Source: a virus
Reading direction: 5' to 3' (one strand)
Length of the DNA: 42,773 nt
Virus record (IMG/VR): IMGVR_UViG_3300011253_001100
Location: 1 to 42,773 of that record
This document shows positions 5,231-36,816 of this stretch, piece by piece. Position 1 is the first letter of the stretch; every line of letters starts with the position of its first letter. The position numbers were made by a program, and so were the translations under genes. Below the pieces are notes generated by a model that ran no database searches, was not told the origin of the DNA, and saw only the letters and a program-made list of their open reading frames with translations.

Positions 5231-5477
5231 GAAACCCAAGTACGTCATCACCGCGGACCGCCACCAGTGGATCGTGAACAGGGTCCGCTTCCGCGGCGAG
5301 AAGTCGGCGGAGCCCGGGTCCGAGTACCTCGACCCGATCGGCTACTGCGCGTCCCTCAGGGACGCCCAGCGGTTCGCCGCGGACACCCTGGCCCGCGAGC
5401 TCTGGCCCGCCGAGGGCGTCCCCCTGGAGGAGGTCTACGACCACCTCGTCGCCGAGCACACGGAGGATCGGTCGTGA
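5223..5477 (+). CDS. Hypothetical protein, 84 aa, GTG start
   Basis: The GTG at 5223 lies inside the end of the preceding gene and has GGAGG six bases upstream. The product begins ARKPKYVITADRHQWIVNRV after the initiator and looks like a small alpha/beta protein. Its function is unknown. The overlaps on both sides (8 and 4 bases) tie it into one translationally coupled operon. Confidence 0.65.
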   Translation: MARKPKYVITADRHQWIVNRVRFRGEKSAEPGSEYLDPIGYCASLRDAQRFAADTLARELWPAEGVPLEEVYDHLVAEHTEDRS

Positions 5478-5749
5478 TCGTCTCCAAGGAAGTCCTGGGC
5501 CTCCGCATCCTCAGGGCACGCCGAGCGATCCAGGCCACCCTGCCGGAGATGGAGGTCTCCGGGGTGTCGAAGTCCTCGGTCTGCCGGGCTGAGAACGGCC
5601 AGGCGTACCCGTCCCTCCCCAACCTCATCCTCATCGCCCGCGCCCTGGAGCTCGACCTGAACGAGCTCCTCGCTGACCCCCGGTGTCGGAACTGCGGCCA
5701 GCTAACAGTCTCCGATCAGAGCTCCTGCGCGGACTGCACCGGCCACTGA
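5474..5749 (+). CDS. XRE-family helix-turn-helix regulator with C-terminal Cys pairs
   Basis: A 91-residue protein starting at GTG 5474 (GTGA overlap, GGAGG upstream). Residues about 7-62 fit the XRE/Cro-type DNA-binding fold: LGLRILRARRAIQATLPEME, then the recognition-helix region GVSKSSVCRAENGQAYPSLP, then LILIARALELDLNELLA. The last 25 residues contain two Cys-x-x-Cys pairs (CRNC and CADC), likely a small zinc ribbon. In a phage with an integrase it is the only visible candidate for a lysogeny repressor or Cro-like switch protein. However, it sits inside an operon and not beside the integrase, so control of the adjacent methyltransferase is an equally good idea. Confidence 0.75.
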   Translation: MIVSKEVLGLRILRARRAIQATLPEMEVSGVSKSSVCRAENGQAYPSLPNLILIARALELDLNELLADPRCRNCGQLTVSDQSSCADCTGH

Positions 5750-6681
5750 TGCATGACCATCTTCATCTCCTCTCCGTGTGCTCTGGGATCGGAGGACTGG
5801 ACCTCGCAGTCTGCCGCGTCCTCGGCGCCCGGCCTGTGGGTTACGTCGAACGGGAAGTGTTTGCCGCGACCGCCCTCATGGAGAGGATGGCGGAACCGCC
5901 CCTGGCGCCCGCACCTGTCTGGGACGATCTGCAATCCTTCCCTGGAGAGCTCTTTCGCGGCCGAGTGGACGTCATCGCTGGGGGCATCCCGTGTCAGCCC
6001 TACTCCTCCGCGGGAACGCGAGGTGGCCGTAGGGACGACCGGGACCTCCTGGACGTCTTCCTCGACACCGTTCGCACGGTGGGACCCCGCATCGTCATCC
6101 TGGAGAACGTGCGCGCCTTCGCCGCGCAGGGCGGCCTCGCGCGCCTGCTCCACGGCCTTGCCTGCCTCGGGTTCGATGCGGAGTGGGCTGCTGTTCGAGC
6201 GTCCGATGCCGGTGCCCCTCACCGACGAGACCGACTCTTCGTTCTGGCCTACGCCGATGGCGAGGGACTGGAAGGTGGACTCCCCGGAGAACTCGCCCGG
6301 CGTGCCGCCGCCGCTGTCGAGGCTGGTGCTCCGATGCCCCGAGCTCTGGCCCACGGTGACCGCGGGGGACTCGAAGGCGTCGGGGAGCCGGACGGCGGCG
6401 GGCTCGAAGGCTCACCCGGGGACGTCCCTGACCGACGCGGTGACCACTGGAGACTCCCGTGGCCGCCGGGACCGGACGGAGACTGGGACGGGGTCCCGGA
6501 CCACCACCGCCCTGCGACTGAACCCGGTGTTCGTGGAATGGCTGATGGGACTCCCTCCCTGGTGGACTATGCTCAGGTCATGCGAGTAGATCGCATCCGA
6601 GCCCTCGGCAACGCCGTCGTCCCCCAGCAGGCGGAGGCAGCGCTGCTGCACCTGATCCGACAGAGCCATGTTGACGCCTGA
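5749..6681 (+). CDS. DNA (cytosine-5) methyltransferase, with possible internal frame switch
   Basis: It should transfer a methyl group from S-adenosylmethionine to C5 of cytosine in DNA, protecting phage DNA or altering host methylation. The start ATG overlaps the XRE stop (TGATG). In the 310-residue frame I see SVCSGIGG (residues 9-16, SAM site), PCQ (81-83, catalytic Cys), ENV (119-121), GAPHRRDRLF (155-164) and, near the end, RALGNAVVPQ (motif X). The segment 6242-6571 is open in two frames. The +1 frame gives FWPTPMARDWK, ELWPTVTAGDSKASGSR and LNPVFVEWLMGLP, typical of phage methylase target-recognition regions, with 98 of 110 third positions G or C. The annotated frame gives 73 of 110 but also carries family-like words (PWPPGP, EPGVRGMADG). 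The real product may therefore combine frames. Confidence 0.85.
   Translation: MHDHLHLLSVCSGIGGLDLAVCRVLGARPVGYVEREVFAATALMERMAEPPLAPAPVWDDLQSFPGELFRGRVDVIAGGIPCQPYSSAGTRGGRRDDRDLLDVFLDTVRTVGPRIVILENVRAFAAQGGLARLLHGLACLGFDAEWAAVRASDAGAPHRRDRLFVLAYADGEGLEGGLPGELARRAAAAVEAGAPMPRALAHGDRGGLEGVGEPDGGGLEGSPGDVPDRRGDHWRLPWPPGPDGDWDGVPDHHRPATEPGVRGMADGTPSLVDYAQVMRVDRIRALGNAVVPQQAEAALLHLIRQSHVDA
6242..6571 (+). other. Alternative-frame target-recognition segment inside the methyltransferase
   Basis: Read in frame +1 relative to the methyltransferase start, these 110 codons contain three methylase words (FWPTPMARDWK, ELWPTVTAGDSKASG, LNPVFVEWLMGLPPWWT) and a high third-position G+C of 89%. The frame is open from 5753 to 6589. 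It lacks the catalytic motifs upstream and motif X downstream, both of which are in the annotated frame. A complete conventional enzyme would therefore need one switch near 6241 and another near 6575. Confidence 0.7.
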
Positions 6682-13060: not shown

Positions 13061-13915
13061 TCAGGGAGCGACGTAGTCGCCGAGGCGGGTGAACATGGCC
13101 TGGACGTTGAGAGTCGCGGACTCGTTGTTGTTCAGGCCAGAGACGCAGGCGACCCGCAGGGCGACGGCTTCCGTGGCGGAGAGGTTGAGCAGCTTGTGGA
13201 GGTGGAACGAGACGTCGGGGGTTCCGTCCGCCGTGCCTCCTCCCTCGCCCAGCTGCATCGAGAACGATTCGTTGTCGTAGCGGGTGTCCGTGGTGTTGTT
13301 CACGAGGGCCCAGGACACGAACGGATCGAGCGTCCCGGTGACGAGGCGGCTGAAGTGCCCGTGGATCTCGACCTCCCAGAACCCCGAGACGAGGTTCATG
13401 TAGTCGGAGAAGATGTTGGGGATGTCCGAGGACTCACCGTAGACGCGGTCGCGCTCAGAGATCGGGTGGTTGTGCGAGGAGTCGGCCCAGAAGCTGGAGG
13501 CGTCCAGCGCCAGCGCGCGGGTCCCGTAGCTGATCTCGTGCTTCGAGGTGAAGGCCGGGCTGCCGTCCGCTCCGGCCGGGCCCGCGGGGCCGACGTTCAG
13601 GATGTCGTAGCGGTCCTCCAGTTCCTCCGCGATGTAGGTGAACTGCTTGCGCTGGGTCTCCATGTTCTCCAGCGTCACCGGAGCCCCCGCGGTGAAGGTC
13701 ACCAGGGCGGTGTGCGGGGTCTGCCTCTGGAGGACCACGGTGGACCCCAGGGTGGCGCCGGAGTCGAGGGTGATCTGCTGGGCGCCGGTCCAGGTGTAGG
13801 TGACCGGGACGGCGTCGACCGTGACCACGGAGTGGCTCTGGTCGAGGTAGGGCCAGGTGACGGTGAAGACCGTCTGCCCGGCCGTGGCGGTGTACTCGTC
13901 GCGTGCGTAGCTCAT
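13061..13915 (-). CDS. Tail fibre protein (T7 gp17-like N-terminus)
   Basis: The first 100 residues match the T7 tail-fibre attachment domain: YTATAGQTVFTVTWPYLDQS, then VTVDAVPVTYTW, then VVLQRQTPHTALVTFTAGAP. A short collagen-like GPAGPAGADG follows near residue 110, then a beta-rich distal part of about 170 residues. At 284 residues it is about half the length of T7 gp17 (553), so the receptor-binding part is short. Other small proteins downstream (8636-9870, 11576-12771) might provide extra binding functions. The ATG overlaps the stop of the gene upstream by four bases. Confidence 0.88.
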   Translation of the reverse strand: MSYARDEYTATAGQTVFTVTWPYLDQSHSVVTVDAVPVTYTWTGAQQITLDSGATLGSTVVLQRQTPHTALVTFTAGAPVTLENMETQRKQFTYIAEELEDRYDILNVGPAGPAGADGSPAFTSKHEISYGTRALALDASSFWADSSHNHPISERDRVYGESSDIPNIFSDYMNLVSGFWEVEIHGHFSRLVTGTLDPFVSWALVNNTTDTRYDNESFSMQLGEGGGTADGTPDVSFHLHKLLNLSATEAVALRVACVSGLNNNESATLNVQAMFTRLGDYVAP

Positions 13916-16900
13916 TGGATGGGACCGGACAGGCGGCCGATGGTGTCGGTGTCAGTGTCGGACAGGGCGCGCAGACCAGCGCGCCGCTCGGCCTTCCGCT
14001 GCCGGGCTTCGGCGAGCAGCGAGGCGGCCTCGGGGAACTCTTCGAGCATCTCCCGCAGCGCCTTCTGGCGGTAGCGGGTGACGATCATGGTGATCGCTTC
14101 GACGCGCTCGGACTGGCCGACCTCAGCGACGGAGCTCATCCGCTTGTAGCGGTTGGACTGCATGAGCCCGGTGAGCTCCTGGCGGAGACTCTTGCCCTTG
14201 ACCTTGACCTTCCCGTGGAGCTCGCCCCAGCGGTCGTAGGCGGTCTGCCCGGCGTCGTTGCGGATCTCGCGGAGGTCGACCCCGTTCTGGACCTCCCGCG
14301 GCGGGCGGAAGCCGTGGCGCAGGGAGGCGAGCTCCTGGCGGATCAGGTCGGAGGAGACCTCGCGGTAGGCGATCGGCTGGATGAAGCCGACCCAGGAGCC
14401 GATGGCGTCATCGCCAGCCTGCCCGGTGCGCTTCAGGGGCTCGCCGAGGAGGTTGCGCCGGACGCCCGCCTGGACGTCGATGGCGTCGCCGAGGCCCGGG
14501 GTGCGGCTCACGATGCGTTCGAGGACCCCGTGGGACTCGACCATCGCGTCGTCGCCGAACGCCTGCATCGCCTGGCCGAAGGTGTTGGGCACGACCGCCG
14601 AGGCGTACTGCTCGACGAGGGCGCCCATGTTCTTCTGGGGGTCGGAGAGGGCGTCGATCACCTGGCCGATGCCCTGCATGAAGGACCGCTCGACGAAGTT
14701 GTTGGCGAGCGAGACCATGATCGAGGTCCCGACCTCCTGGAGATCGGTGTCCTCCGACGAGTCCGCCAGGCGGGCGACGTCGTAGGTGTCCGCCACGAGA
14801 CCGAAGAAGGTCGCGAAGGGGTCCATCCGGAGGTACTGCACGAAGCCGCTGGGCGTCCTGAAGGAGTAGGGCATCCAGCCCGCGTCCATCAGAGCCTTCC
14901 GCTCGTCGGGGTCCTGGGGGCCGCGCCCGGTGATGAGGCCGTTCGCGGCGAGCATCGAGGCGGTGCCCATCATGCCGATCCCCGCGGCCACCCGGCCGTA
15001 GGCGTTGGCCTGGACCGTGGGGTCGTCGGAGAGCATCTCCTTCAGGAAGCGGCTGCGGATCTCCTCGGGCGCCTTGGCGCGGAGCTTCTTCGAGGCGAGG
15101 CCGTACTCCAGGACGTCAGCGATCGGGATGCGCTGGCCGACGAACTTCGCGACGTTCAGCGGCATCCGGTAGAACGGCACGATGAAGCGGCCGAGCGGCA
15201 GGTCGTAGACCGTCATCGAGTCGAGCCACGCCTGGCCCTTCTGGCCGAAGCCGCCGTCGGGCAGCGGCGTCTGGAGGGTGGCCTCCTGGGCGCGCGCCAG
15301 GGCGTCCTCCATGTTGGCCGACCGCGAGGGGTCGAAGTGCTTGGTGTAGTTCGCGTCGACGTAGTTCGCCAGGGCGGCCGGGTCGGTGAGCCCCTGGGCC
15401 TTGCCCTCGGCGATCGCGATCTTCCTGGCAGCGGTCTCGGTCTTCAGCTGGCCGTCCACCAGGACGGTCTTGAGCGTGTCGTCGGCGTAGGCCGCGGCGC
15501 CCGCGTGGTCCATCCCCTTCTCCAGGCCCTCGGCGAGGAACTGGCCGCGGAGGCGAGCACGCGCGGTCATCTGCTTCACGAACTCGTCGGCCGTACCGAT
15601 GAGGCGGGACGGGAACCCGACCACCTTCCCGGCGACGTGGAACATCGAGCCGAGGAGCTTCTCGCTCTGGTCGCCCGCGAGCTCACGGCGGAGCGTGGTG
15701 CCCCCGGCGAGCGGGTCGTCGCGCATGGAGCGGCCCGGGTCGATCTGGCTGACGCCCGTCTGCCACGTCTTCTTCGCGGCCCTCGCGGCCTCCTGGAAGC
15801 CCGAGGTCAGCGAGATGAGCTCGCCGTAGGCCGAGTTGATCGCGGTGCGGTCGCCGCGGAGGGCGCCACCGAGCATCTGCTCCAGGGGGAGGTAGACCGC
15901 CAGGGCGGCGCCGGACAGGCCCTGGATCGAGATGGTGCGCGGGCCAGAGAGGATCGAGTTGATGAAGACCTCGTAGAGGACCTTCGAAGACTTGCGGCCG
16001 AAGGACAGCTTCCGCAGCGCCTCGGCGGCGGCGGCCGACTCCAGGCCACCCTCGCTGAACGCCACGGCCATCTGCTCCATGAGGACCTCGGTGTCGGCCG
16101 AGTCGCCGAGCATCTTCGCGGTGAGCTCGGCCATGGGGCCGTCGTTCTCGAAGGCGATCTGCTGGGCGCGGAGGAGGCGGCCCCCCTCGCTGCCGACCGC
16201 GTTCATGTTGCGGAGGGCGTCGTTGAAGCCGTGCTGCTGGAGCTTCAGGAACTTCGCCTTGGCTTCGACGTCGCCCTTGATGGCGAGGTCGAGCAGCTGG
16301 GCAGCGCCCTCCAGCATGGCGCCCATGTACTGGTTGATCGAGACGGAGACCACGGTCTGCGCGCGGATGTCGTCAGCGGCGCCCCGGGCCTTCGCAGAGA
16401 CGAGTTGCAGGGCCTCCTCGGGGGAGAGCCCCAGGAGCTCCGAGGTCATCCTCACGGCCTCCGCGTGGATCTCCTCGCTGATCGGCCCGATCTCCTTCAG
16501 CGTGCCCCCGTTGAGGTCTTCGACCGCGCGGTAGACGTGGGCCCCGCCCTTCGTCTCGACGCGGTCCGCGAGGTTCTTGCCGTCGGGGTGGAGCTCGAAC
16601 TCGACCAGCTGCTCGGGGTCGAGCTTGCGCGGGTTCGCCTCGGGCAGCGGGCGCGCGGCCTTCGAGTAGCCGTAGGCGTCCATGAACTCGTCGGTGGCCG
16701 CCTCGGCCTCGTCGTCGGTGAGCCGGGCCCCACCGATCTCTTCGAGGATCTCGTCCTTCCCCTGGGGGGTCTCCGAGTGGAACTCCTCGCCAGCCGCGGG
16801 GCCGGGGTTGTCCCTCGACACCGGGCCGGGCTCGACCTCGTCGAGGTCCTTCGCGCGGGCGCGGGTGTTCATCAGGTCGGCCATGCCGTCCCGAGCGCGG

Positions 16901-17634
16901 CCGGGGTCGACCGCGTCCTTCATCGCGTCGCGGATGCCGCCCGGCTCCATGCCGTCGGCCTTCGCCTTGCGGACCGCCTTGAGGCCCCGCATGGACTCGA
17001 TGAGCGAGCCGACCGCGGCGCCGAGGCCCATGCCTTCGAGGACGTTCTTGATCCTCGCGACCACCTGGGAGTCATCCCCGTCGGTCGCCAGGAACTCGGT
17101 GAGCGGGTTGGCGAGCGCGGGTTGGCTCTGGATCAGCGCGGAGAAGTTCTCCTCGTGGCCGTCGAACGAGAGGAAGTCGGACACGGCCCCAGCCGTCGCG
17201 CCCTTGTTCACGCCCATCAGGAACTTCCCGGACTTCGTCGCGGACATCGCAGCGGAGGCCGCCTTGACCGCGCCGAGTTTGCTCAGGGCGTTCGCAGCGA
17301 AGCCGCCAGGGACGAAGCCGATGGCGAACTGCGCGATGTTCTCCAGGAGCGCGCCGCCGAAGGTGTCGCTCTTGCCGAAGACGCGGTCGTCCCCGGACTC
17401 GATGCCGACCAGCGAGCCGATCGAACGGACGAACCCCTCGGCACCCCGGGGGATCGCCAGGGCGACGTCGTCGAAGTCGAGCCAGCCGCCGTCCTCCTCC
17501 TCGCCCTCCGCGTTCACGCCGGAGCTCGCGAGGCGGGCCTGCTCGGCCCGGCGGAGGAAGTCCGTCTGCTCAGCGCGCTCGGCTTCGCGACGGTCCTCCT
17601 CGCGGAAGTAGCTGTCCACGCTGTAGTCAGTCAT
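13912..17634 (-). CDS. Internal virion / DNA ejection protein (T7 gp16-like)
   Basis: A 1240-residue protein in the place of T7 gp16 (1318 residues), which leaves the capsid at infection and helps form the trans-envelope channel. It is predominantly helical, with a hydrophobic Gly/Ala stretch at about residues 85-135 (FAIGFVPGGFAANALSKLGA) and long amphipathic regions. I find no lytic transglycosylase motif at the N-terminus, where T7 gp16 has one; the N-terminus is instead acidic. Identification is by size, composition and synteny. Confidence 0.8.
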   Translation of the reverse strand: MTDYSVDSYFREEDRREAERAEQTDFLRRAEQARLASSGVNAEGEEEDGGWLDFDDVALAIPRGAEGFVRSIGSLVGIESGDDRVFGKSDTFGGALLENIAQFAIGFVPGGFAANALSKLGAVKAASAAMSATKSGKFLMGVNKGATAGAVSDFLSFDGHEENFSALIQSQPALANPLTEFLATDGDDSQVVARIKNVLEGMGLGAAVGSLIESMRGLKAVRKAKADGMEPGGIRDAMKDAVDPGRARDGMADLMNTRARAKDLDEVEPGPVSRDNPGPAAGEEFHSETPQGKDEILEEIGGARLTDDEAEAATDEFMDAYGYSKAARPLPEANPRKLDPEQLVEFELHPDGKNLADRVETKGGAHVYRAVEDLNGGTLKEIGPISEEIHAEAVRMTSELLGLSPEEALQLVSAKARGAADDIRAQTVVSVSINQYMGAMLEGAAQLLDLAIKGDVEAKAKFLKLQQHGFNDALRNMNAVGSEGGRLLRAQQIAFENDGPMAELTAKMLGDSADTEVLMEQMAVAFSEGGLESAAAAEALRKLSFGRKSSKVLYEVFINSILSGPRTISIQGLSGAALAVYLPLEQMLGGALRGDRTAINSAYGELISLTSGFQEAARAAKKTWQTGVSQIDPGRSMRDDPLAGGTTLRRELAGDQSEKLLGSMFHVAGKVVGFPSRLIGTADEFVKQMTARARLRGQFLAEGLEKGMDHAGAAAYADDTLKTVLVDGQLKTETAARKIAIAEGKAQGLTDPAALANYVDANYTKHFDPSRSANMEDALARAQEATLQTPLPDGGFGQKGQAWLDSMTVYDLPLGRFIVPFYRMPLNVAKFVGQRIPIADVLEYGLASKKLRAKAPEEIRSRFLKEMLSDDPTVQANAYGRVAAGIGMMGTASMLAANGLITGRGPQDPDERKALMDAGWMPYSFRTPSGFVQYLRMDPFATFFGLVADTYDVARLADSSEDTDLQEVGTSIMVSLANNFVERSFMQGIGQVIDALSDPQKNMGALVEQYASAVVPNTFGQAMQAFGDDAMVESHGVLERIVSRTPGLGDAIDVQAGVRRNLLGEPLKRTGQAGDDAIGSWVGFIQPIAYREVSSDLIRQELASLRHGFRPPREVQNGVDLREIRNDAGQTAYDRWGELHGKVKVKGKSLRQELTGLMQSNRYKRMSSVAEVGQSERVEAITMIVTRYRQKALREMLEEFPEAASLLAEARQRKAERRAGLRALSDTDTDTIGRLSGPIQ

Positions 17635-20499
17635 CTAGTTCTCGTTGAAGTCCTTGAGGCGGAGTAGCTGGCGTCGACGGAACTCGACGGTCGCCTGGGC
17701 GGGGTCGGCGGTGTCCAGGCCGAGCTTGGTGAAGAAGGTCATCCGGTCAGCCTCGGGGGTGTTCGCGATCCACTCGTCGACCGCCTTGCCGGTCTGGAAG
17801 AAGAGCGAGAGGTGGGTGTTCGCCTGGTCGTAGTCCGGCGTCAGGGTCAGCTTGACGCCATCCTTCGAGTCGAAGGTGATGACGCTGTCGCTGGCGGACA
17901 GGGCAGCCTGGAGGCGAGCTCGGCGCAGGTCGGCCTTCTCGTTCGTCGCCTGGGTGAGGACCAGGAGGTCGCCACCCCAGGAGCGATCGAGGTTGCCGAT
18001 GTCGCCCTTCGAGATGTCGACCTGGATGGGCTTGCCAGCCATGAAGTCCTCGGGGGACTGCACGCCGGACAGCAGGGCGAGCGAGGTGAGCCGCTGGGCG
18101 AACTCCTCCGGCACGGTGTCCGCCAGGGAGGCGTCGCGGATCTCCTGACCGATGGTGTACCGCGCGGTGCGCCCGAAGACGCGCTCGGGGGTGCTCGACT
18201 CGAAGAAGCCGATCGTGCTCTGCGGGTCGCCGAGCCACTCCGGGACGGGGCCCATGGTGAGCGCGACGGCCGCGGGCACCGAGCCGCTGTTGACGTAGGC
18301 CCGGTAGTCGAGGGCACCCTGGCGGTTCCGCGCGGCCTTCCTGGGGCCAACCTCGGCGGCGAGGCGCAGGGTCTTCTTGTCCTCGTCCTTGAGGTACGGG
18401 TCCATGCTCTCCAGCATCGCGTCGCGGATCGCCCGGTTGGTCGCGACGATCTGCTCCTCGGGCGCGAGGCTCTGGGTCTCCTTGGCGCCAGCCAGCGCAC
18501 GCTCGCGGAAGCTGTCGACGACCTCGGCCTTGAGCGCGGAGGTGACCTCGGCGGAGAGGCCCTCCGTCTCGGCCAGGTCCTGGATCACGCTGTCGATCGC
18601 GCGCAGGGAGTTCTGGTAGCGGAGGTTCCCGAGGAGACGGTTCTCCTGCGTCGAGGCCGTGCGGTCACGCTTCGAGCGGAGGTCGGTGATGACGCTCTGC
18701 TCGACCCGGCCGCGCAGCTTCGAGAGGGCCTCGTCCATGGCCTCGGAGTCGCCGCGGGAGAGCGCGATGTTGAACTCGGACACGCCCTCCTGGATCTGCT
18801 CCTCGAACCCGCGGAGCTTCGTCTCGCGGGCGCGCAGCTTCTCCTGGACGTCGGGCAGGGCCCAGACGTCGGTGGGCTCCTCGCCCTTCCTCTTGAGGTC
18901 GAGGGCGCGCTGCTGGACGTAGCTCAGGAGCTCGGAGCCCTCCTTCTGGAGGCTGGTGTAGTCGGCGGGGTTGACGTTCCGCGGGATCGCCTTGTCGCTC
19001 ACGACGGCGTCCAGCTGGCGCATCCCGGGCGACTGGCGCAGGGCGTTCCAGACCTTGCCCGGCTCGTCCTTGGTCCACTGGCGGAGGCCCGCGGCGCTCA
19101 GCTGGTCCCCGGCGAAGGCGGCCACGATGAGGTCCGGGGTCCCGGCGCGCTGCATCGCGGTCAGGCGGGACATGATCCGCTCGTCCTCGGCGGCGTCCAG
19201 GGTGCCCCGCTGGTTGAAGTCGGCCGACAGGGTTCGCCTCAGCGTCCCCAGGAGCCACTCAGGGGGCGCGTCGAGCCCGGCCTGGCCGAGAGCCGCGCGG
19301 GCCGTCGGGTCCTCCAGGAGGCGCTCCACAGTGTCTCTGAACGCACGCTCGCTGGTGACGTCGCCGGAGTCCGCGAGGATCTCCTCCTGGAGGCCCCTGG
19401 CGACCCGGCTGATGTTCGACGTGAGGACGCCCATGGCGTCGTTCTCCTCGCGGGCGGCTTCGAGCGCGGCCCGCTCCGCGCGGCGCCGGAGGCCGTGGAT
19501 GGCCTGGGCCTCGGGGCGGCTGTCGTTCTCGATGGGGAGCCCGGGGGTGATCTCGATCTCGCCGACGATGTCGAGCATCCTCTGGACGCCCTCGGGGTCG
19601 TCCTCGAGGTCCGACTCGGATATCTGCGTCGCGGTCGCCATGACGAGCTCCAGGGGGTCCCCGACGTTCTCGACCTCGCGGAGGTACTGGACGCCGTCCT
19701 GGAAGGACTTGGCCGCGGTCAGCGGGCCGACCGAGGGGTCCATCAGGGAGCGCATCCCGGTCGCCTCGAAGCCCGGGCGGTTGAACCCGGTGGCGAGCTC
19801 GTTGACCCGGAGGGACCGAGCGCGGGCGCTCTGGGCTCCGGCGCGCTGCTCGCCGATCGTGTCGAGGAAGCTGCCCTCGATCTCGGGCCAGAACTCGTCG
19901 ACGAGCTCTCGCGCGGTGAGCGACTGGGAGACCAGGGGGGACGCTAGGAGCTCCGCGCGCTTCGCCGCGGCGAACTCCTCGGCGTCCTCGGGGACGATGA
20001 GGTTGCCGTCCCCATCCTCGATCGCGGTGTACTGACCGACCCCGGCCATGAGCTCGCGGGCCGACTGGCGCATGGCGCGCTCGGTCTCGGCCTGGGCGAC
20101 CCCGATGAGCCAGACCGGGTCGGCCTGGTCCGGGATGACGCCCTGCTCGCGGAGCGTGCGGAGGACACCCTTCTGGCGCTTCGCGAGCTCGGCGTCGTCG
20201 GTGATGCCCTCGCCCACCTTCGCGAGCTCCTCCTGGAGCGTGGCGACGGCGTCGCTGTTCGCGCGGTCCCGGCCGAACTGCTGGCCGGACTCCTGCGCGA
20301 GGCGGCGGCGCTCCTTCTGCTCCTCCTGGACGATCCCGAGGACCTGGTCGCCGAGCGGGCCGATGTCGACCGGGCGCGCAGCGGTGGCCCCGTTGAGGTT
20401 GAGGGTCGTGTCCTGGTAGACGTCGCGAGCGCCGATCTGCGGCCCGGCCTGGGTGCTCCTCGTCGGGGAGAGGTCCTGGATGCGGTAGCGTTTCTGCAT
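17635..20499 (-). CDS. Internal virion protein (T7 gp15-like)
   Basis: 954 residues, helix-rich, charged, no signal peptide. In T7 gp15 (747 residues) assembles with gp14 and gp16 into the internal core and ejection channel. The flanking gp14-like and gp16-like genes place this product in the same role. Its N-terminus, MQKRYRIQDLSPTRSTQ, is followed by a Gly/Ala-rich segment and a long series of predicted helices. It is longer than T7 gp15, with no obvious inserted enzyme domain. Confidence 0.75.
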   Translation of the reverse strand: MQKRYRIQDLSPTRSTQAGPQIGARDVYQDTTLNLNGATAARPVDIGPLGDQVLGIVQEEQKERRRLAQESGQQFGRDRANSDAVATLQEELAKVGEGITDDAELAKRQKGVLRTLREQGVIPDQADPVWLIGVAQAETERAMRQSARELMAGVGQYTAIEDGDGNLIVPEDAEEFAAAKRAELLASPLVSQSLTARELVDEFWPEIEGSFLDTIGEQRAGAQSARARSLRVNELATGFNRPGFEATGMRSLMDPSVGPLTAAKSFQDGVQYLREVENVGDPLELVMATATQISESDLEDDPEGVQRMLDIVGEIEITPGLPIENDSRPEAQAIHGLRRRAERAALEAAREENDAMGVLTSNISRVARGLQEEILADSGDVTSERAFRDTVERLLEDPTARAALGQAGLDAPPEWLLGTLRRTLSADFNQRGTLDAAEDERIMSRLTAMQRAGTPDLIVAAFAGDQLSAAGLRQWTKDEPGKVWNALRQSPGMRQLDAVVSDKAIPRNVNPADYTSLQKEGSELLSYVQQRALDLKRKGEEPTDVWALPDVQEKLRARETKLRGFEEQIQEGVSEFNIALSRGDSEAMDEALSKLRGRVEQSVITDLRSKRDRTASTQENRLLGNLRYQNSLRAIDSVIQDLAETEGLSAEVTSALKAEVVDSFRERALAGAKETQSLAPEEQIVATNRAIRDAMLESMDPYLKDEDKKTLRLAAEVGPRKAARNRQGALDYRAYVNSGSVPAAVALTMGPVPEWLGDPQSTIGFFESSTPERVFGRTARYTIGQEIRDASLADTVPEEFAQRLTSLALLSGVQSPEDFMAGKPIQVDISKGDIGNLDRSWGGDLLVLTQATNEKADLRRARLQAALSASDSVITFDSKDGVKLTLTPDYDQANTHLSLFFQTGKAVDEWIANTPEADRMTFFTKLGLDTADPAQATVEFRRRQLLRLKDFNEN

Positions 20500-20502
20500 G
20501 GT

Positions 20503-21039
20503 CTACGGGCCGGTGGTTGCGTCGGGGAGGGGGCCGCCCATGGTCGAGGCGTAGCCGGAGAGGGCAGCGCCACCGAGGCCGAACACGACGTCCCAGATGC
20601 CGACGCCGGGCTGGATGGGCTTCTGGGCTGCGAGGGCGCGGTTGTACGCCTGGCGGTTGATCGCCTCGAACTCGTAGGTGTCCGCCGAGTCGCCGAGGAA
20701 GGACCGCCGGGTGACGGCGGCGCGGTTCGTGACCTCCTGGGAGGCGAGGTTGGCGAGCGTCTTGGAGACAGACCCACCGGCCGAGCCGCCAGCGCGGGCG
20801 ATCCCGCTGGCCTTCAGGGCCTCGCGGGTGACGTTCACAGCCTCGGCAGCCAGGGACTCACGCGCCTCGACGCGGCGCCGGATGACGCCCTCCGCCTGGA
20901 AGGCGGCGTCCTTGTTGGCACGCTGGCGGGCGGTCTCCGCCTGCGTCTTGTTGAACTTGTTGTTCGCGTCCGCGACCATCTGCTGCTGGACCAGCTGGGT
21001 CCCGGCGATCGCCATGGAGATCGAGACGGGCTCACACAT
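20503..21039 (-). CDS. Internal virion protein (T7 gp14-like)
   Basis: 178 residues beginning MCEPVSISMAIAGTQLVQQQ. T7 gp14 likewise begins MCWAAAIPIAISGAQ and has similar length (196). A Gln/Ala/Lys-rich helical centre and a Gly/Ala hydrophobic C-terminal segment near residues 145-165 (VGIWDVVFGLGGAALSGYAS) fit a protein that enters the outer membrane on ejection. It overlaps the gp13-like gene upstream by eight bases. Confidence 0.82.
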   Translation of the reverse strand: MCEPVSISMAIAGTQLVQQQMVADANNKFNKTQAETARQRANKDAAFQAEGVIRRRVEARESLAAEAVNVTREALKASGIARAGGSAGGSVSKTLANLASQEVTNRAAVTRRSFLGDSADTYEFEAINRQAYNRALAAQKPIQPGVGIWDVVFGLGGAALSGYASTMGGPLPDATTGP

Positions 21040-21520
21040 TGAGCATCTCCTTCGTGGCGTAGAACTCCAGGAAGACCTCGCCGTCGTTCCCGTAGCCCGG
21101 GTGGGCGTCAGTGAACTTGAACCCCATGGACTTCAGCCAGCGGACGTGGACAGCGTTGCGGGCGTCCACGAAGTTCGCGAGGAACTCGAAGGTGTTGAAG
21201 AGGCGGGTGACCCACTCGCGGCTGAGGCGCATGAACTCCTTGGGGGAGGAGACCACCTCGTCGGCACCCAGCAGCCAGACGTAGCCGAACTTCACGCCGG
21301 ACTTCTCGTAGACTTCGAGGTCGGGCGTGACGCCGAACATGGCGATCGGGCCGAGCTTGCCTTCCTCGACGGTGTAGCACAGCGTCGATCCGCGAAAGCC
21401 CTTCTCCAGGGCGGTCTTCGGGGTGTCGCCGGATGCCGCTGCGATCTCCATGAGGTCAGCCTCGCGGAGATGCGGCGCAAGGTCCTTCGGGTCGGACGCG
21501 GTCGCAGGGCGGATGTTCAT
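21032..21520 (-). CDS. gp13-like protein with acetyltransferase-type fold
   Basis: 162 residues starting at ATG 21520 (MNIRPATASDPKDLAPHLRE), overlapping the upstream stop by four bases. In T7-like phages the gene between tail tube B and gp14 encodes gp13, needed for internal core assembly. The pattern IRPATASD at the start and NAVHVRWLKSMGFKFTD near the C-terminus is GNAT-like, as in gp13-family proteins of environmental podoviruses. Whether it binds acetyl-CoA is unknown. Confidence 0.75.
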   Translation of the reverse strand: MNIRPATASDPKDLAPHLREADLMEIAAASGDTPKTALEKGFRGSTLCYTVEEGKLGPIAMFGVTPDLEVYEKSGVKFGYVWLLGADEVVSSPKEFMRLSREWVTRLFNTFEFLANFVDARNAVHVRWLKSMGFKFTDAHPGYGNDGEVFLEFYATKEMLNV

Positions 21521-24500
21521 AGGGCAGGTCGGTAGCGGCTGAGGTCCCCCTCCCAGGTGAGACCAAGGACGCGGGTGGGGAGGACCGTGGGGGACTCCAG
21601 CTTGACCACGAGGCCGTCCGCGGGGGAGGCGATCGAGGTGATCCAGGAGCCAGTGAACAGGTCGACAGTGGACGAGGCGACCGCGCAGAGGTCGGACGCC
21701 TGGGAGGTGAAGTCGTGCTGGAAGGTCTCTCCGAAGCACGCGGGGGTCAGCAGCACCGAGAGGAACCCGGTGCCCGCGACGCGGATCTCCAGGCGGTCCA
21801 CCAGGAGGCGACCAGCGCGGGGGACGGGGCCCTCGCCGTAGTCGACCTGGATCACCGGCTCGGTGAGCGTCAGCTGGAGGTTGTACTCCTCGCCGACCCA
21901 GTAGTCGTCGCTGGTGCAGTCCCCGGTCACGGTGACCGTGGTGGTCGTGAACTCCTCGACGTTGTACTCCACCCCTGCGGTCGTGGCGACGCGGGGGGTG
22001 GCGCCGGAGTCGAGGGTGTACGGGAGGGTGATGACCGTCTTGTCGTTCGGGGCGTCGTAGACCTCCGAGGTGACGGAGGTGTCGCGGACGCGGCGGTCGA
22101 TGTGGACCACGAGCTCCTGCCCGTCGTCGAAGATCCCGTCGCCGACCTCCATCTTCTCCAGGTAGAGGTCGTTGTCCCGGACGATCAGGAAGATCAGGTC
22201 CCGGTCGCGAGCCTCGACCCAGACGATCTCGGCGTCGTCGCCGAAGACCCAGCGGGACCAGGCGGCCTGCACCCGGCGGTTGCCGGACCAGACGTTGCGG
22301 TAGACGTAGAGCGTGTTCGCGGAGTCCGCGAGGATGAAGTGCGCCTGCTCGCGAGGGAGCGCCTCGTTGGACACGGGGGTCCCGGCGATGTAGCTCGGGA
22401 TGCCCTGCGAGACCTCCTCGAAGTCCAGCAGGCCCTCCTGGTTCCTGAAGAACTCCACGGCGCCAACGTAGTCGGCCCCGCGGGTCAGGTAGAGGAGTGA
22501 GCGGCCCGAGGGGCTGGGGCGCACGGGCGAGACCGAGTAGCTCGACACCCGACGGAGCGAGCTCACGTTGGGGGAGATGATGTCGCCGTCGAGCTCGTAC
22601 TGCCCGTTGTCCGTGGAGACGATGAGGCGCCCGCCGAGCTCACCCGCGGAGCGGATGGTCGTGAGCTCCTGCTCGTTCACCGCGAGGTCGATCGGGTCGC
22701 TCTCGGGGACCGTCAGGGTGGTCGTGTTGAACAGGTTGAAGTAGACCCCAGCCTCGCTGAGGAGGAGGTTCTGCCCGCCTGCGAGGCCGAGGCGGTTCGC
22801 GTGGAACAGGATCTCCCCGAGCTTCTTCCCGGCGATCCCCGGGGCGAGGTCCGTGCTGCCCACCGTGCGCTCCACCCAGTCGACCGGGCCGAACGTGAAG
22901 AAGGGCAGGTAGGCCGTGCCCGTCACCGTGCCCGAGGCGTCGTCGATGACGCGCTGAAGCTGGTGGGGCATGGAGTGCTCGTCCATGGTGAGGACGGTCT
23001 CCCAGTCGGTGGCCTCGTTCCAGCGACCCTGGCCGAACTCGTCGGTCCCGCCCTCCGCGACGAACTCGACCCAGAAGTCGTCGTCCGTGCTGGTCGGGTC
23101 GGGGCTGACCTTCGTGCGGTAGCCGTCGCGGCCGACGAGGGGGAGGTCTGCGAACCGCTCGACCTCGTCGCGCCACCCAGCGATCAGCGTGTCGCCCTGG
23201 GAGTCCGTGACGGAGAACGAGGTGATCTCGCTGGTGGACTTGATCTCGATGACGGAGCCCTCAGCGGTCGCGGAGAGGCTCGCGTCGAGCGCGGTGATGT
23301 CCGTGGCGAGGTCCCCGGCGATCCACTGGGTGTTCACCTGGGACACCGTGGTCCCGGGGTTCGTGGTCGTCGAGAACGTCCCGGCGGTGTTCGTGATCTC
23401 GACGACGTAGTCCGCGTTGGAGACGCCCTGCTGGACGCTGACGTACATGACGTCGGTCGGCGTGTCGGGGTGACGCGCGAGCCACGCGGTGCGCGACTCC
23501 GAGGCAGCCCCGGCGTACCTTGCGGTCCACTCGGTGTTCAGCACGAAGGTCGCATCGGCGACCGTCAGGAACCGGAAGCTCCCGTAGGCCGCCGTGCGGA
23601 GCGGGATCGACTCGGTGAGCGTGCTCGAGGTGTCGTCGTGTTGTAGCGCGATGCCCCAGAAGTAGTCGGCGTTCGTCGTTGCGCTGATGAGCGTGAGACG
23701 GACGAAGCCGAGCTGGTCGCCGGGGTTCGGGTTGTTCGAGCCGTTGGTCTGGTCGATGACGTAGACCGCGCGGTACCAGTCTCCGCCGACGGACTCGACG
23801 AACGAGGTGCCGGGCATCGTGCCCGCCAGGGCGGACGCCACGAGGGTCGTTCCGCTCCAGGTGAACTCGGCCTGGTAGTTGAGGCTCTGCGTCGTGTTCC
23901 GCGCGAGGAGGCGGATGGTGCCGACGTCGTCCTTCTTCTTGACGTAGACCGAGAGGACCGTGACGCCCTGGCCGATGCGGCCTCCAGCCTGGTGCGTCCA
24001 GTTGCCGTCGCCCGTGCCCTGGCGCGCGAGCTCGACGGCGGTGTCGCCGGAGCCGTTGGGGACGTCCGGCGCAGGCTCGGCGCTCGTCGCAGCGGTGGCC
24101 TCGTCGACTCCGGTGTCCGTGGACCAGGCGCCCTCGGTGCCGATGTGGCGCCAGTCGCCGATGAAGTTGTCCGGGCAGTCGGAGAGGTAGTGCGTCGAGT
24201 ACCCCAGGGGGCCGACGAGACCTTGATCGACGACGGTGGCCTCGGTCCCCGTGGGGATGCCGAAGACGCGCAGGCCGGGCGTGGTCGGCGTCGGGCCGCG
24301 GTCCGAGAAGATCACGGCGTAGTCCTCGCCGTCCCGGTCGATGGTCGTGAAGCTGGCGTTCGAGGGGAGGTCGTCGATCAGCTTGCCGAGGTGCTCGGTC
24401 GGGGGGCGCTTCGTGGCGCCGCCGACGAGCGACAGCCAGGCGTTGACGGCGTCCTCGACCTGGGTCGCCCGGCGGACGCTCGGGGGCTGCTGGGAGACGC

Positions 24501-24540
24501 CCCCGGCGAGCGTCGACACGACCTTGGTGACTCGACTCAT
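21517..24540 (-). CDS. Tail tubular protein B / nozzle (T7 gp12-like) with inserted domain
   Basis: 1007 residues against 794 for T7 gp12, which forms the tail nozzle. The N-terminus, LAGGVSQQPPSVRRATQVED, is diagnostic. The conserved text resumes around residue 320 with SFRFLTVADATFVLNTE. Between about residues 122 and 316 an extra module of roughly 190 residues is inserted: it contains LSVYVKKKDDVGTIRL, DWYRAVYVIDQ and NADYFWGIALQHDD, a beta-sandwich style I associate with carbohydrate-binding or fibre modules of phage tails. The rest (LTIRSAGELG-type and VRPSPSGRSLLYLTRG segments) follows the usual gp12 plan. ATGA overlap with the next gene. Confidence 0.9.
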   Translation of the reverse strand: MSRVTKVVSTLAGGVSQQPPSVRRATQVEDAVNAWLSLVGGATKRPPTEHLGKLIDDLPSNASFTTIDRDGEDYAVIFSDRGPTPTTPGLRVFGIPTGTEATVVDQGLVGPLGYSTHYLSDCPDNFIGDWRHIGTEGAWSTDTGVDEATAATSAEPAPDVPNGSGDTAVELARQGTGDGNWTHQAGGRIGQGVTVLSVYVKKKDDVGTIRLLARNTTQSLNYQAEFTWSGTTLVASALAGTMPGTSFVESVGGDWYRAVYVIDQTNGSNNPNPGDQLGFVRLTLISATTNADYFWGIALQHDDTSSTLTESIPLRTAAYGSFRFLTVADATFVLNTEWTARYAGAASESRTAWLARHPDTPTDVMYVSVQQGVSNADYVVEITNTAGTFSTTTNPGTTVSQVNTQWIAGDLATDITALDASLSATAEGSVIEIKSTSEITSFSVTDSQGDTLIAGWRDEVERFADLPLVGRDGYRTKVSPDPTSTDDDFWVEFVAEGGTDEFGQGRWNEATDWETVLTMDEHSMPHQLQRVIDDASGTVTGTAYLPFFTFGPVDWVERTVGSTDLAPGIAGKKLGEILFHANRLGLAGGQNLLLSEAGVYFNLFNTTTLTVPESDPIDLAVNEQELTTIRSAGELGGRLIVSTDNGQYELDGDIISPNVSSLRRVSSYSVSPVRPSPSGRSLLYLTRGADYVGAVEFFRNQEGLLDFEEVSQGIPSYIAGTPVSNEALPREQAHFILADSANTLYVYRNVWSGNRRVQAAWSRWVFGDDAEIVWVEARDRDLIFLIVRDNDLYLEKMEVGDGIFDDGQELVVHIDRRVRDTSVTSEVYDAPNDKTVITLPYTLDSGATPRVATTAGVEYNVEEFTTTTVTVTGDCTSDDYWVGEEYNLQLTLTEPVIQVDYGEGPVPRAGRLLVDRLEIRVAGTGFLSVLLTPACFGETFQHDFTSQASDLCAVASSTVDLFTGSWITSIASPADGLVVKLESPTVLPTRVLGLTWEGDLSRYRPAL

Positions 24541-33256: not shown

Positions 33257-35212
33257 TTAGTGGGTCTCCGCCCAGTTGGCGCCGATCTTGGCCTCGGCGG
33301 GAGTGGTGACGCGGAGGCCAAGCTGACGGCCAGCTTCCGCACAGGCTTCTTCGATCGCCGCGGCGCACGCCTCGGCCGTGGCGGAGGGGCACTCGACCTG
33401 CACCTCGTCGTGAACGTGGAGGACCATGAAGGCCCCGAACGTGCGGAGGACTGCGTCGACGTTGTTCGTCCACGCCTTCAGCAGGACCGAGGCGTTCGCC
33501 TGGATCAGCGTGTTCAGGACAGCGTGCAGCGAGCGGACGGGGATGCGTCGGCCGTCGAGGCCGCGCAGGAAGCCGCGCTCGCGGGCCGTCTCCTTCAGCG
33601 CCTCGATGAGGCGGTCCACGCCGAGGCCGCCGAGGAGCTTCTTCTTGATCGTGCGTGCCCTGTTCTGGGAGACGCCGAGGGACTTCCCGAGCTTCTCGTA
33701 GCCCGCCCCGTAGAGGCAGGCGTAGATCGCGGTCTTCGCCTGGTCGCGCGTGGCGAGCCCAGCGATCTGCTGGTTGTGGGTGTGCGGGTCGCCGTCGGGG
33801 TCGTCGAGGATTCGAGCGAACCGACCGCCGTCGTAGGGGGCGAGGTAGTGCGAGAGGATGCGGAGCTCGATGCCCTGAGCATCGCAGCCGATGAGGCGGA
33901 ACCCCGGGCGGGGGCCGAACAGCGCGCGGCACTCGGGCCCGTAGGCCGAGCGGACCGCGGGCACCTGGCCGAGGTTCGGCTTGGAGTGCGAGCACCGGAA
34001 GGTGATCGTCCCACAGTGGTTGATGTAGGGCTTGATCTGCCCGTGCTTGACGAGCTTCATCCACCCGTTGCGGCCGCGCGACAGCTGCCCCAGCCGCTTG
34101 TCCAGCAGGAGGGCCTCGTTCGCGAGCTTCGCCTCTTCCCACTCCAGGCCCTTCAGCGTGGTCTCGTCGACCTTCACCTGGCCGGACTCGGTGAACTCGG
34201 ACGGGGACCAGCCGCGGCGCTCGCGGAGGTGGCGCGCGATGTGCTGCCGGGACGACGGGTTGAACTCGGTGACCACCTCCTCGGTGACAGGCCCGGCGAG
34301 CTTGGACAGCGAGGCGAGATCCGAGGTGCCCGCACGGTTGTCGAGGATGGACTGAGCGACGCGGCCGACCTTACCGTCGGTGGTGGCGAGCTCCGCCAGG
34401 ACCTTCGCGTTGAGCCTGGGGGTTCCGCTGGGGGTGAACTCCTCGGGCTCCCACCCGGCCTGCCGCAGGGCGAGCAGGGGGTACTTGCCCATGGCCGCCG
34501 GGGGCACGAGGTTGTGGTCGACGAAGTCGTCGCAGACGCGAGCGAGCTCGTCCTTCACCTCGGCCTCGCGGATCTCCAGCGTGCGGAGCAGCGCCGTCGC
34601 TCCCTCCTCGTCGAAGGCCACGCCCCTCATGTTGATCCTGTTGATCGCGGTGGCGAACTTGTGTTCGACCTCCACGCTGAGCTCGACGCCCTTCTCGGCG
34701 CGGCGCCGGGCGCACGTCTGCCAGAGCTTCCGCAGTACGGCCACGTCCTGCGCGCAGTAGTCGAGCATCTCCAGGGAGAAGTGATCCCAGCCCCCGGTGT
34801 ACCCGCCCTTGTGCTCGTCGAGCCGGTGGCCCCACGCCTCCAGCGAGTGGCGTCCCCAGTACTGGGTCGGGAACCCTTCGTACTTGCGACGGACGTCGAT
34901 CTCGTAGAGGTCCGACCAGAACAGCTTGGTCAGGACGAGGGTGTCCTCGACCGCGCCCTTCGGCGACCAGCCCAGCAGCTTCCGCATGGCGGGCACGTCG
35001 AAGCCGATCGCGTTGTGAGCGACGACCCGGTCGAACTCGTTGAGGCGAGCCATCCCCTGGGCGAAGGTGCCGTCGCGGGGGCCGATGCCGGGCGAGCCAT
35101 GGTAGCGCTCGACCTCCCCGTCACCGTCAGCATCCGCGATGCAGAGACAGTGGATCGCCGTGGCCTCGTCGAGGAGGCCGTTGGTCTCGATGTCGAAGAC
35201 TGCGGTCCGCAT
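33257..35212 (-). CDS. DNA polymerase (T7 gp5-like, family A)
   Basis: 651 residues from ATG 35212 (TGATG overlap). N-terminal 3'-5' exonuclease: FDIETNGLL (residues 6-14), AHNAIGFDVPAM, YCAQDVAVLRKLW. Polymerase: motif A LIGCDAQGIELRILSHYL, motif B RDQAKTAIYACLYGAGYEKL, motif C LHVHDEVQVEC. The O-helix residue equivalent to T7 Tyr526 is Tyr. It should replicate the genome, presumably with host thioredoxin as in T7, but the thioredoxin-binding loop cannot be judged by eye. Shorter than T7 gp5 (704). Confidence 0.95.
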   Translation of the reverse strand: MRTAVFDIETNGLLDEATAIHCLCIADADGDGEVERYHGSPGIGPRDGTFAQGMARLNEFDRVVAHNAIGFDVPAMRKLLGWSPKGAVEDTLVLTKLFWSDLYEIDVRRKYEGFPTQYWGRHSLEAWGHRLDEHKGGYTGGWDHFSLEMLDYCAQDVAVLRKLWQTCARRRAEKGVELSVEVEHKFATAINRINMRGVAFDEEGATALLRTLEIREAEVKDELARVCDDFVDHNLVPPAAMGKYPLLALRQAGWEPEEFTPSGTPRLNAKVLAELATTDGKVGRVAQSILDNRAGTSDLASLSKLAGPVTEEVVTEFNPSSRQHIARHLRERRGWSPSEFTESGQVKVDETTLKGLEWEEAKLANEALLLDKRLGQLSRGRNGWMKLVKHGQIKPYINHCGTITFRCSHSKPNLGQVPAVRSAYGPECRALFGPRPGFRLIGCDAQGIELRILSHYLAPYDGGRFARILDDPDGDPHTHNQQIAGLATRDQAKTAIYACLYGAGYEKLGKSLGVSQNRARTIKKKLLGGLGVDRLIEALKETARERGFLRGLDGRRIPVRSLHAVLNTLIQANASVLLKAWTNNVDAVLRTFGAFMVLHVHDEVQVECPSATAEACAAAIEEACAEAGRQLGLRVTTPAEAKIGANWAETH

Positions 35213-36816
35213 CAGAAGTCCTCCGTGGCTTCGACAGGGGTGAAGTCGGAGACCGCGCCAGCGGCCCCAGGCTGGAGGCGTCCGGTCTTGTAGTTGTAGA
35301 CCAGGGTCCCGGCGAACCCGGCGGAGCCCGTGATGCGGCACTTGAGGACGTGCGTCTCGGTCGGCGTCGCCGCCTCCTGGTCACGAGCGAGGCCGATCAT
35401 GGTGTGCGAGAACGCCTCGATCATGCCCGACCCGCGGACCTCCTCCATGCGGGGCACGCGGCCCTGCGAGTAGCCCTCGCCCTGGCTGCCGGGTCGGCGC
35501 AGGTGGACCACGAGGAAGATCGTGACGTCGGTCTCCTGGACGAGGCCAACCAGCCGCTGCATGATCTCATCCACCAGCTGGCGGTCGCCGCTGTTGCCGA
35601 GGGAGGAGCTCACGACGACCGAGAGGTTGTCGAGGAAGATGAACTTGCAGCCGTCCCCCTTCGCCATGAAGCGCGCCTTCTCTTCGAGGGCGCCCGCGTC
35701 GAGTCGGCCACAGTGGCGGTAGACGGTGACGTTCCCGGCGAGCTTGGCCTGCGCGGCGATGAGGTCCTCGTCGGCGAAGTCGATGGGCTCCTCGCGGAGC
35801 AGCGGCCGGTCCACCAGGGGGGTCAGCAGGGAGAGCGCGGTCGCTCGCTTGTTCTGCTCCAGGCTGATGTACCCGACCCGGTAGCCCTCGCTGACGAGGT
35901 AGGTCGCGAGCTCAGCGCAGAAGGTGGTCTTGCCCGCAGCGGGACCAGCGGCGATCGTGATGATCTCGCCGTCGCGGATGCCGCCCGTCTTCTCCTGGAT
36001 GCCGGGCACGTTCCACTCGATGGAGGGCGGGGGGTCCTCGGTCGAGACCTCCTGCCAGAGCTCGGTCCACCCCATGAGGCCGTCGGGCCGGTAGGGGATG
36101 GCGTCCCAGAACGCCTGGACGAGCTCGGCCGTGCGACCAGCCTGGAGGAGCTCGCTCGGGTCCTTGCCGTCGAAGTGCATGATCGACGCCTTGCCGGGGG
36201 CGAGGAGCGCGGCGCACGCGACGGCCGCCTTCTGCCCAGGCTCGTCCTGGTCGAAGCAGATGACGACCCGATCGAAGGACTCCACCCAGGACAGCTGCGC
36301 GAGGATGGCGTCGGCCGCCCCGCTCGCCCCGTTCGGGACGGAGACGCAGGCCCATCGGTTGCCCTGGACCTGGTCCATCGTGAGGGCGTCGATCTCCCCC
36401 TCGGTGATGATGAGGTGCTTGCCCCCGCCGCGGGACAGGTGCTGGCCGAACAGGGTGAGCCCACTCTTCTCACCCGTCCACCAGAAGCGCTTGTCTTTCG
36501 ACCGATACTTCTGGGCCACCACCTGCCCCGTAGCGTTCCTGTACTGCGCCACCTGATGGCCGCTCGCCACGCCGTAGCCGTAGCGTCGGCACGTCTTCGT
36601 CGTCAGGCCCCTGGCAGGGATGTCCCGGATCTCGATGGGGACGAGAGCCCCCTCCGGAACGAAGTCCTCGATCTCCTCTGCGTTGACCTCACCGTCACCA
36701 TGAGTGTGCCGCTCGCAGACGAAGCAGTAGGTGTGCCCATCGTCGTAGAGGGCGCAGCCGTCGGAGCTTCCGCAGTCGGCGCAGGGACCGTGAGAGAGGA
36801 GGGAGGAATCAGCCAT
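35212..36816 (-). CDS. Primase-helicase (T7 gp4-like)
   Basis: 534 residues. N-terminal zinc site C12, C15, C31, C34 (CADC ... CFVC) for primase template recognition; TOPRIM with ITEGEIDALT (137-146) and CFDQDEPG (187-194); RecA-type helicase with Walker A GPAAGKTT (291-298), FIFLDNLSVV as Walker B and FLVVHLRRPG as the H-loop. Full-length fusion like T7 gp4A (566). Overlaps the nuclease gene upstream by eight bases and the polymerase gene by one base. Confidence 0.94.
   Translation of the reverse strand: MADSSLLSHGPCADCGSSDGCALYDDGHTYCFVCERHTHGDGEVNAEEIEDFVPEGALVPIEIRDIPARGLTTKTCRRYGYGVASGHQVAQYRNATGQVVAQKYRSKDKRFWWTGEKSGLTLFGQHLSRGGGKHLIITEGEIDALTMDQVQGNRWACVSVPNGASGAADAILAQLSWVESFDRVVICFDQDEPGQKAAVACAALLAPGKASIMHFDGKDPSELLQAGRTAELVQAFWDAIPYRPDGLMGWTELWQEVSTEDPPPSIEWNVPGIQEKTGGIRDGEIITIAAGPAAGKTTFCAELATYLVSEGYRVGYISLEQNKRATALSLLTPLVDRPLLREEPIDFADEDLIAAQAKLAGNVTVYRHCGRLDAGALEEKARFMAKGDGCKFIFLDNLSVVVSSSLGNSGDRQLVDEIMQRLVGLVQETDVTIFLVVHLRRPGSQGEGYSQGRVPRMEEVRGSGMIEAFSHTMIGLARDQEAATPTETHVLKCRITGSAGFAGTLVYNYKTGRLQPGAAGAVSDFTPVEATEDF

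Follow-up and report, generated by a model that had tools for sequence, protein, structure and literature searches.

A phage locus of the cytosine-5 DNA methyltransferase type very probably encodes, judging from its sequence, a two-chain enzyme whose subunits are written in two overlapping frames of the same strand (Table 1). The locus resides in a stretch of 42,773 nucleotides, hereafter the window, corresponding to positions 1-42,773 of IMGVR_UViG_3300011253_001100, a metagenomic virus record of IMG/VR. Protein families found on the minus strand at 13912-24540 and 35212-36816 (internal virion protein, tail protein, primase/helicase) point to a short-tailed phage whose host is rich in G+C. 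In the model proposed, the alpha chain, read in frame 0, would bind the cofactor and contribute motifs I-VIII, catalytic cysteine included, along with motif X; the beta chain, read in the +1 frame, would contribute the recognition region and the helix on the motif IX side, located in single-chain enzymes between motifs VIII and X. The two chains would be translated separately, and assemble into one enzyme, competent for methylation and endowed with a single specificity set by beta. Within alpha, the stretch coding for beta would be no more than a flexible link between motifs VIII and X, and the same bases would thus specify a recognition domain in beta, and a tether in alpha. Dual coding, conservation of both frames, independent start signals of beta and the position that the beta segment takes in single-chain relatives are demonstrated by the data reported below. 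The stop codon of the upstream helix-turn-helix gene overlaps the alpha ATG (TGATG), the two genes being translationally abutting, and the helix-turn-helix protein may control the methyltransferase operon.

Table 1. Features of the methyltransferase locus (window coordinates).
Feature	Position	Strand	Description
Upstream helix-turn-helix gene with CxxC...CxxC tail	5474..5749	+	Pfam HTH_3, 1.2e-6
Tandem start TGATGCATG	5747..5755	+	Stop of the upstream helix-turn-helix gene 5747-5749, alpha ATG 5749, beta-frame ATG 5753
Alpha subunit (putative)	5749..6681	+	Frame 0, 310 aa; ATG 5749, stop TGA 6679-6681
Beta subunit (putative)	5753..6589	+	+1 frame, 278 aa from ATG 5753; stop TAG 6587-6589
Beta alternative starts		+	TTG 5861; GTG 6023 (188 aa); ATG 6176 (137 aa)
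Alpha catalytic motif IV, PCQ	5989..5997	+	Catalytic cysteine 5992-5994; invariant P80 C81 Q82 (alignment A1)
Beta N-terminal hallmark WDPASSSWRT	6080..6109	+	+1 reading of alpha motif VI DNA; consensus of alignments A2/A6
Alpha motif VI, ENV	6103..6111	+	Invariant E118 N119 V120 (alignment A1)
Beta hallmark SGSMRSG	6167..6187	+	+1 reading of alpha GFDAEW
Beta target-recognition region FWPTPMARDWK ... WPTVTAGDSKASGSR ...	6242..6517	+	phrog_1008 match; beta-profile positions 88-176 in frame in single-chain relatives
Alpha dual-coded linker, residues 193-284 (numbered from 5752)	6328..6603	+	Mostly predicted disordered
Beta motif-IX-side segment LNPVFVEWLMGLP	6518..6556	+	-1 reading is alpha EPGVRGMADG
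Alpha motif X (GNAVVP...) and C-terminal helix	6607..6678	+	Frame 0; alignment, AlphaFold2

Alpha carries the motifs of C5-cytosine DNA methyltransferases (PF00145). Motifs I (CSGIGG), IV (PCQ), VI (ENV), VIII (GAPHRR) and X (GNAVVP) follow each other in standard order in frame 0, and alignment confirmed what a sequence-only reading of the locus had proposed, namely that the catalytic motifs and motif X lie in one frame. The frame 0 product matched the Pfam family PF00145 (DNA_methylase) over motifs I-VIII (3.9e-23) and phrog_363 (E = 2.8e-53), and was connected to M.HhaI by hmmsearch (1e-27). The recognition region and motif IX, expected between motifs VIII and X, were not found in the frame of alpha, and were located in the +1 frame; in the profile search, the final positions of phrog_1008, the family matched by beta, were matched by motif X of alpha. 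The AlphaFold2 model of alpha is confident to about residue 175, falls below a pLDDT of 50 at residues 193-243 and 250-284, and ends in an ordered motif X helix; Foldseek related the model to DNMT1, M.HhaI and M.HaeIII. The alpha text over 6240-6575, which AlphaFold2 predicts as disordered, reads as a linker held open. Stops arose in this linker in 75% of the shuffles synonymous for beta in the window, and in a mean of 85% across loci, and on this ground the alpha frame is kept readable throughout the linker.

No stop interrupts the +1 frame between 5750 and its TAG. Dual coding had at first been assigned to 6190-6600; it extends instead from just after the alpha start to 6589. Both readings occur in the DNA as originally quoted, and the early counts of G/C third positions over 6242-6571 proved exact (98/110 in the +1 frame, 73/110 in frame 0; the third frame has 67/110). 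At 69% G+C the stop-free length of the +1 frame is not significant in the window, as 8 of 100 shuffles were equally long, and profile scores and the phase of substitutions were therefore used. Direct tblastn searches of either segment against phages gave no matches, and a scan with the single alpha sequence found no relatives; alignments were thus needed to find them. When the two translations were searched separately, frame 0 led to phrog_363 and PF00145, the +1 frame to phrog_1008, annotated as DNA methyltransferase (E = 4.6e-13 for 6233-6586, 4.6e-24 for 6023-6586, 2.5e-24 for the beta product). The same family was matched by all 42 beta sequences analyzed (42/42). A profile built without the window and without its nearest relative gave the window beta 140.3 bits, and none of 500 synonymous shuffles of alpha rose above 72.5; for the recognition region alone the score was 67.5 bits, and the best of the 500 shuffles scored 27.3.

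The same holds for a wider set of 132 non-redundant loci outside the training set, collected by searching viral contigs and bacterial and archaeal genomes with alpha-only seeds and classified by frame; the sample represents the best matches to this alpha type, rather than all C5-methyltransferases. The +1 beta score exceeded all 100 codon-synonymous shuffles of alpha in 131/132 loci, under a null which preserves protein and codon use, not codon-pair or dinucleotide preferences, and the +2 frame never scored above 25 bits with the beta profile in the 132 loci. The beta profiles were trained on +1 readings, a circumstance offset by the use of non-training loci and of the independent phrog_1008 profile. 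Many shuffled sequences still reach 20-70 bits, because the SGSMRNG stretch at the N-terminus of beta is the forced +1 reading of the conserved GFDAEW of alpha; the observed scores exceed these values. Over the catalytic half, the beta frame scored above all 60 shuffles in 52 of 69 nested loci. Taken together, these data support the notion that dual coding of the methyltransferase recognition region is genuine. No sequence relative of known structure was found for beta, a point that weighs against the two-chain model, as do the poor model of isolated beta and the weak Shine-Dalgarno pairing described below; PDB matches of the beta profile (kelch-type designs) were short and of low complexity, and were discarded.

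Two sequencing or assembly errors of one base each, compensating each other, or a degraded gene, could be invoked for a metagenomic virus record such as the window. Their probability is negligible, and sequencing error is excluded, because the same +1 layout recurs in finished genomes of isolate phages and in more than 130 independent loci (131/132).

Midway along the gene, selection shifts from the alpha frame to the beta frame. Substitutions were counted in 11 independent related pairs of loci, a small number of close pairs obtained by strict selection; no close DNA relative of the window copy was found for a direct constraint test. At alpha codon positions 1/2/3, substitutions were 86/55/229 in the N-terminal region, 175/116/332 in the catalytic overlap, and 216/111/156 in the recognition region (chi-square p = 6e-12). 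The peak in the recognition region falls at the first position of alpha, which is the third position of beta. Protein identity agrees, being higher for beta than for alpha only in the recognition region (0.70 against 0.62), and lower in the catalytic region (0.59 against 0.78). A few pairs, such as L229/L233 (loci are denoted by L numbers), do not exhibit the flip when taken singly. Constraint on the two frames is found in turn along the overlap in the 11 pairs, in alpha phase in the catalytic part, in beta phase in the recognition region. The phase of substitutions, along with the maintenance of an open alpha frame, indicates that 6240-6575 serves beta for recognition and alpha as a linker held open.

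These results also bear on the hypothesis that the two readings are alternative recognition domains, so that a single gene would have two specificities. In its favour, each frame is open and has a match among the methyltransferase families of PHROGs; even so, the hypothesis is very improbable. The frame 0 reading aligns to no single-chain recognition region, is predicted to be disordered, and substitutions in the segment follow the codon phase of beta. Its family-like text, previously taken for a recognition domain, is for the most part the forced -1 reading of beta (..VADG.P derives from ..WLMGFP..). Hence the idea of frame-shifted readings of one DNA stands, that of two recognition domains does not, since only the +1 reading is homologous to single-chain recognition regions; two specificities are unsupported, frame 0 reading as a linker.

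Beta is provided with start signals of its own, of two kinds. In the first, an internal start preceded by a Shine-Dalgarno sequence is located 50-65 codons before motif VI, and was observed 54 times against 16.6 under shuffling. In the second, the starts form an NTG-N-ATG tandem, with ATG lying exactly four bases after the alpha start. When alpha starts were chosen by rule, 20 of 130 loci had an ATG at offset 4, and no other offset had one in more than 4 loci; the beta frame was open up to motif VI in 19 of 22 tandem loci (2.9 expected). The window falls in the tandem class (ATGCATG), as does Salmonella phage ABTNLsp11242 (GTGAATG). Pairing with Shine-Dalgarno sequences is weak at the window starts. 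Based on the sequence, alpha and beta both probably start at the tandem ATG 5749/ATG 5753; a beta start at GTG 6023, or at the other alternatives of Table 1, is possible.

Start signals are relevant to a further hypothesis, programmed ribosomal frameshifting, in which ribosomes would move to the +1 frame near 6241, and perhaps back near 6575, to make a single conventional chain. Read successively in frames 0, +1 and 0, the pieces do follow the order seen in conventional enzymes, and some relatives, such as L035 and L036, are single chains. Yet the beta frame is conserved beyond shuffles in the catalytic half as well, independent beta starts are enriched, and alpha is kept open through a linker which a shifted product would not need. 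Moreover, the sole XXXYYYZ heptamer in 6190-6600 is at 6415, in the middle of the linker, and none is near 6241 or 6575. Frameshifting seems therefore improbable. In general, two compensating shifts restoring a conventional enzyme, as formerly suggested, are disfavoured, since beta is equipped with separate start signals, and its +1 reading extends across the catalytic half too. Two separately initiated chains remain the preferred reading.

Single-chain relatives show where the beta segment belongs. In three of them (L013, L018 and L036) one chain carries the alpha profile (motifs I-VIII), followed by the beta profile from about position 83-105 to 176, and by motif X; the beta-profile stretch covers the greater part of the recognition region, up to and including LNPxWVEWLMG. 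In six others (L014, L021, L024, L026, L035 and L062) the LNPxWVEWLMG end alone is found, at the same place. The centre of beta is hence placed exactly where alpha lacks a recognition region. This is pertinent to the hypothesis that beta is translated and acts alone, for example as a DNA-binding regulator or an inhibitor, rather than as a recognition subunit. AlphaFold2 did not fold isolated beta confidently (mean pLDDT 59.7), which might speak for such a role. It is contrasted by the homology of the central segment to the recognition region of single-chain relatives, a region missing in alpha, and by the precedent of M.EcoHK31I, whose methylation reportedly requires two polypeptides, according to the title of Lee et al. 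1995 as cited in PMC3404938. An independent role of beta is accordingly quite improbable, and beta as the recognition subunit of a two-chain enzyme is retained.

Several single-chain relatives (L013, L014, L018, L021, L024, L035 and L036) exhibit, in the +1 frame of their catalytic DNA, text like the N-terminus of beta beyond synonymous shuffles, with z values of 2.7-5.9; no such text was detected in single-chain enzymes of Streptococcus. This possible relic suggests that the relatives carrying it may have arisen by re-fusion from a two-chain ancestor. Two phages of the same genus, Jarcob (L029, gp69/70) and Rita (L036, gp76), feature two overlapping genes and one chain, respectively, and may represent a natural change-over from one form, fused or split, to the other. 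Locus L176 has one open frame, in which part of the alpha catalytic profile is followed directly by nearly the whole beta profile (45-194), and looks as if the alpha frame had been shifted into the beta frame. A more far-reaching reading is given slightly better than even credence. A large phage and bacterial family annotated as DNA cytosine methyltransferase would be a conserved overlapping gene pair. In beta, the recognition half would go back to the corresponding domain of a single-chain enzyme, and the N-terminal half would have been overprinted on the +1 frame of the ancient catalytic domain; later re-fusions would have left relics in some single-chain enzymes. Most annotations would miss beta, and alpha cloned alone would look inactive.

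The same layout was identified in isolate phages, namely Mycobacterium phages Hades and Rhynn, Microbacterium phage R1, Salmonella phage ABTNLsp11242 and Paenibacillus phage Diva. Alpha alone is annotated in the first four; the label "g49 internal gene" appears in records of Paenibacillus larvae phages. The Salmonella phage pair has a relative in 4 of 5426 complete E. coli genomes (PT62, LP5-1, PCP07014 and 23CRST032), which for the enzyme annotate only "DNA cytosine methyltransferase". If the two-chain model is true, half of the enzyme has been overlooked in most annotations of this methyltransferase family, predictions of specificity from alpha alone would be meaningless, and alpha cloned alone would yield a dead enzyme. 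As an example of extended dual coding on a single strand the locus is unusually clean, and the arrangement persists in phages and bacteria distant from each other; questions on overprinting and gene birth thereby become directly testable by simple methylation assays.

In M.EcoHK31I (YGGCCR), beta is encoded in an alternative frame inside alpha, the two chains measuring 309 and 176 aa. M.EcoHK31I and M.AquI are natural two-chain C5-methyltransferases (PMC3404938; PMC3439449). In M.EcoHK31I the large chain carries motifs I-VIII and X, the small chain motif IX, and the predicted recognition domain has been placed in the large chain; the second chain of M.AquI carries the distal recognition region (PMC3404938). 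In its division of motifs, as read from the sequence, the window resembles M.EcoHK31I, with motifs I-VIII and X in the large chain, and IX in the second polypeptide, and differs from it in that the recognition region is in beta. Moreover, alpha and beta of the window are coextensive genes, opening with the tandem ATG-C-ATG. M.AquI (CYCGRG) is similarly split in nature, with a recognition region in the second chain, but has motif X there too, which in the window belongs to alpha, in frame 0. The layout of M.AquI is matched by the gene pairs Catdawg gp6/gp5, Elephantoon gp85/84 and Upyo gp54/53; Upyo gp53 seems to have been annotated too short, its +1 frame running from 1224. This is a third layout, seen in Mycobacterium and Gordonia phages (L028 1022-1973, L032 1486-2512, L030 1184-2453), in which alpha stops after motif VIII, and a +1 beta carries the recognition region and motif X.

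Paenibacillus phage Diva is similar to the window in that alpha (gp49) hosts an internal beta (gp50, "g49 internal gene") in another frame. The Diva internal protein ends with LNPDWVECLMGFPIGWT; its beta has an internal ATG start, not a tandem one, and the case is known by annotation alone, no functional description having been found in the openly accessible literature. Rita gp76 and JKSyngboy gp4 share with the window the catalytic family and the type of recognition region, but carry the latter in the catalytic frame, in one polypeptide. No description of the family-wide pattern was found in the openly accessible literature, subscription papers being outside the search. In comparison with the systems known, what is new here is the family-wide extent of the overlap, the coextensive form with a tandem start, the location of the recognition region in beta, and the absence of beta from most annotations.
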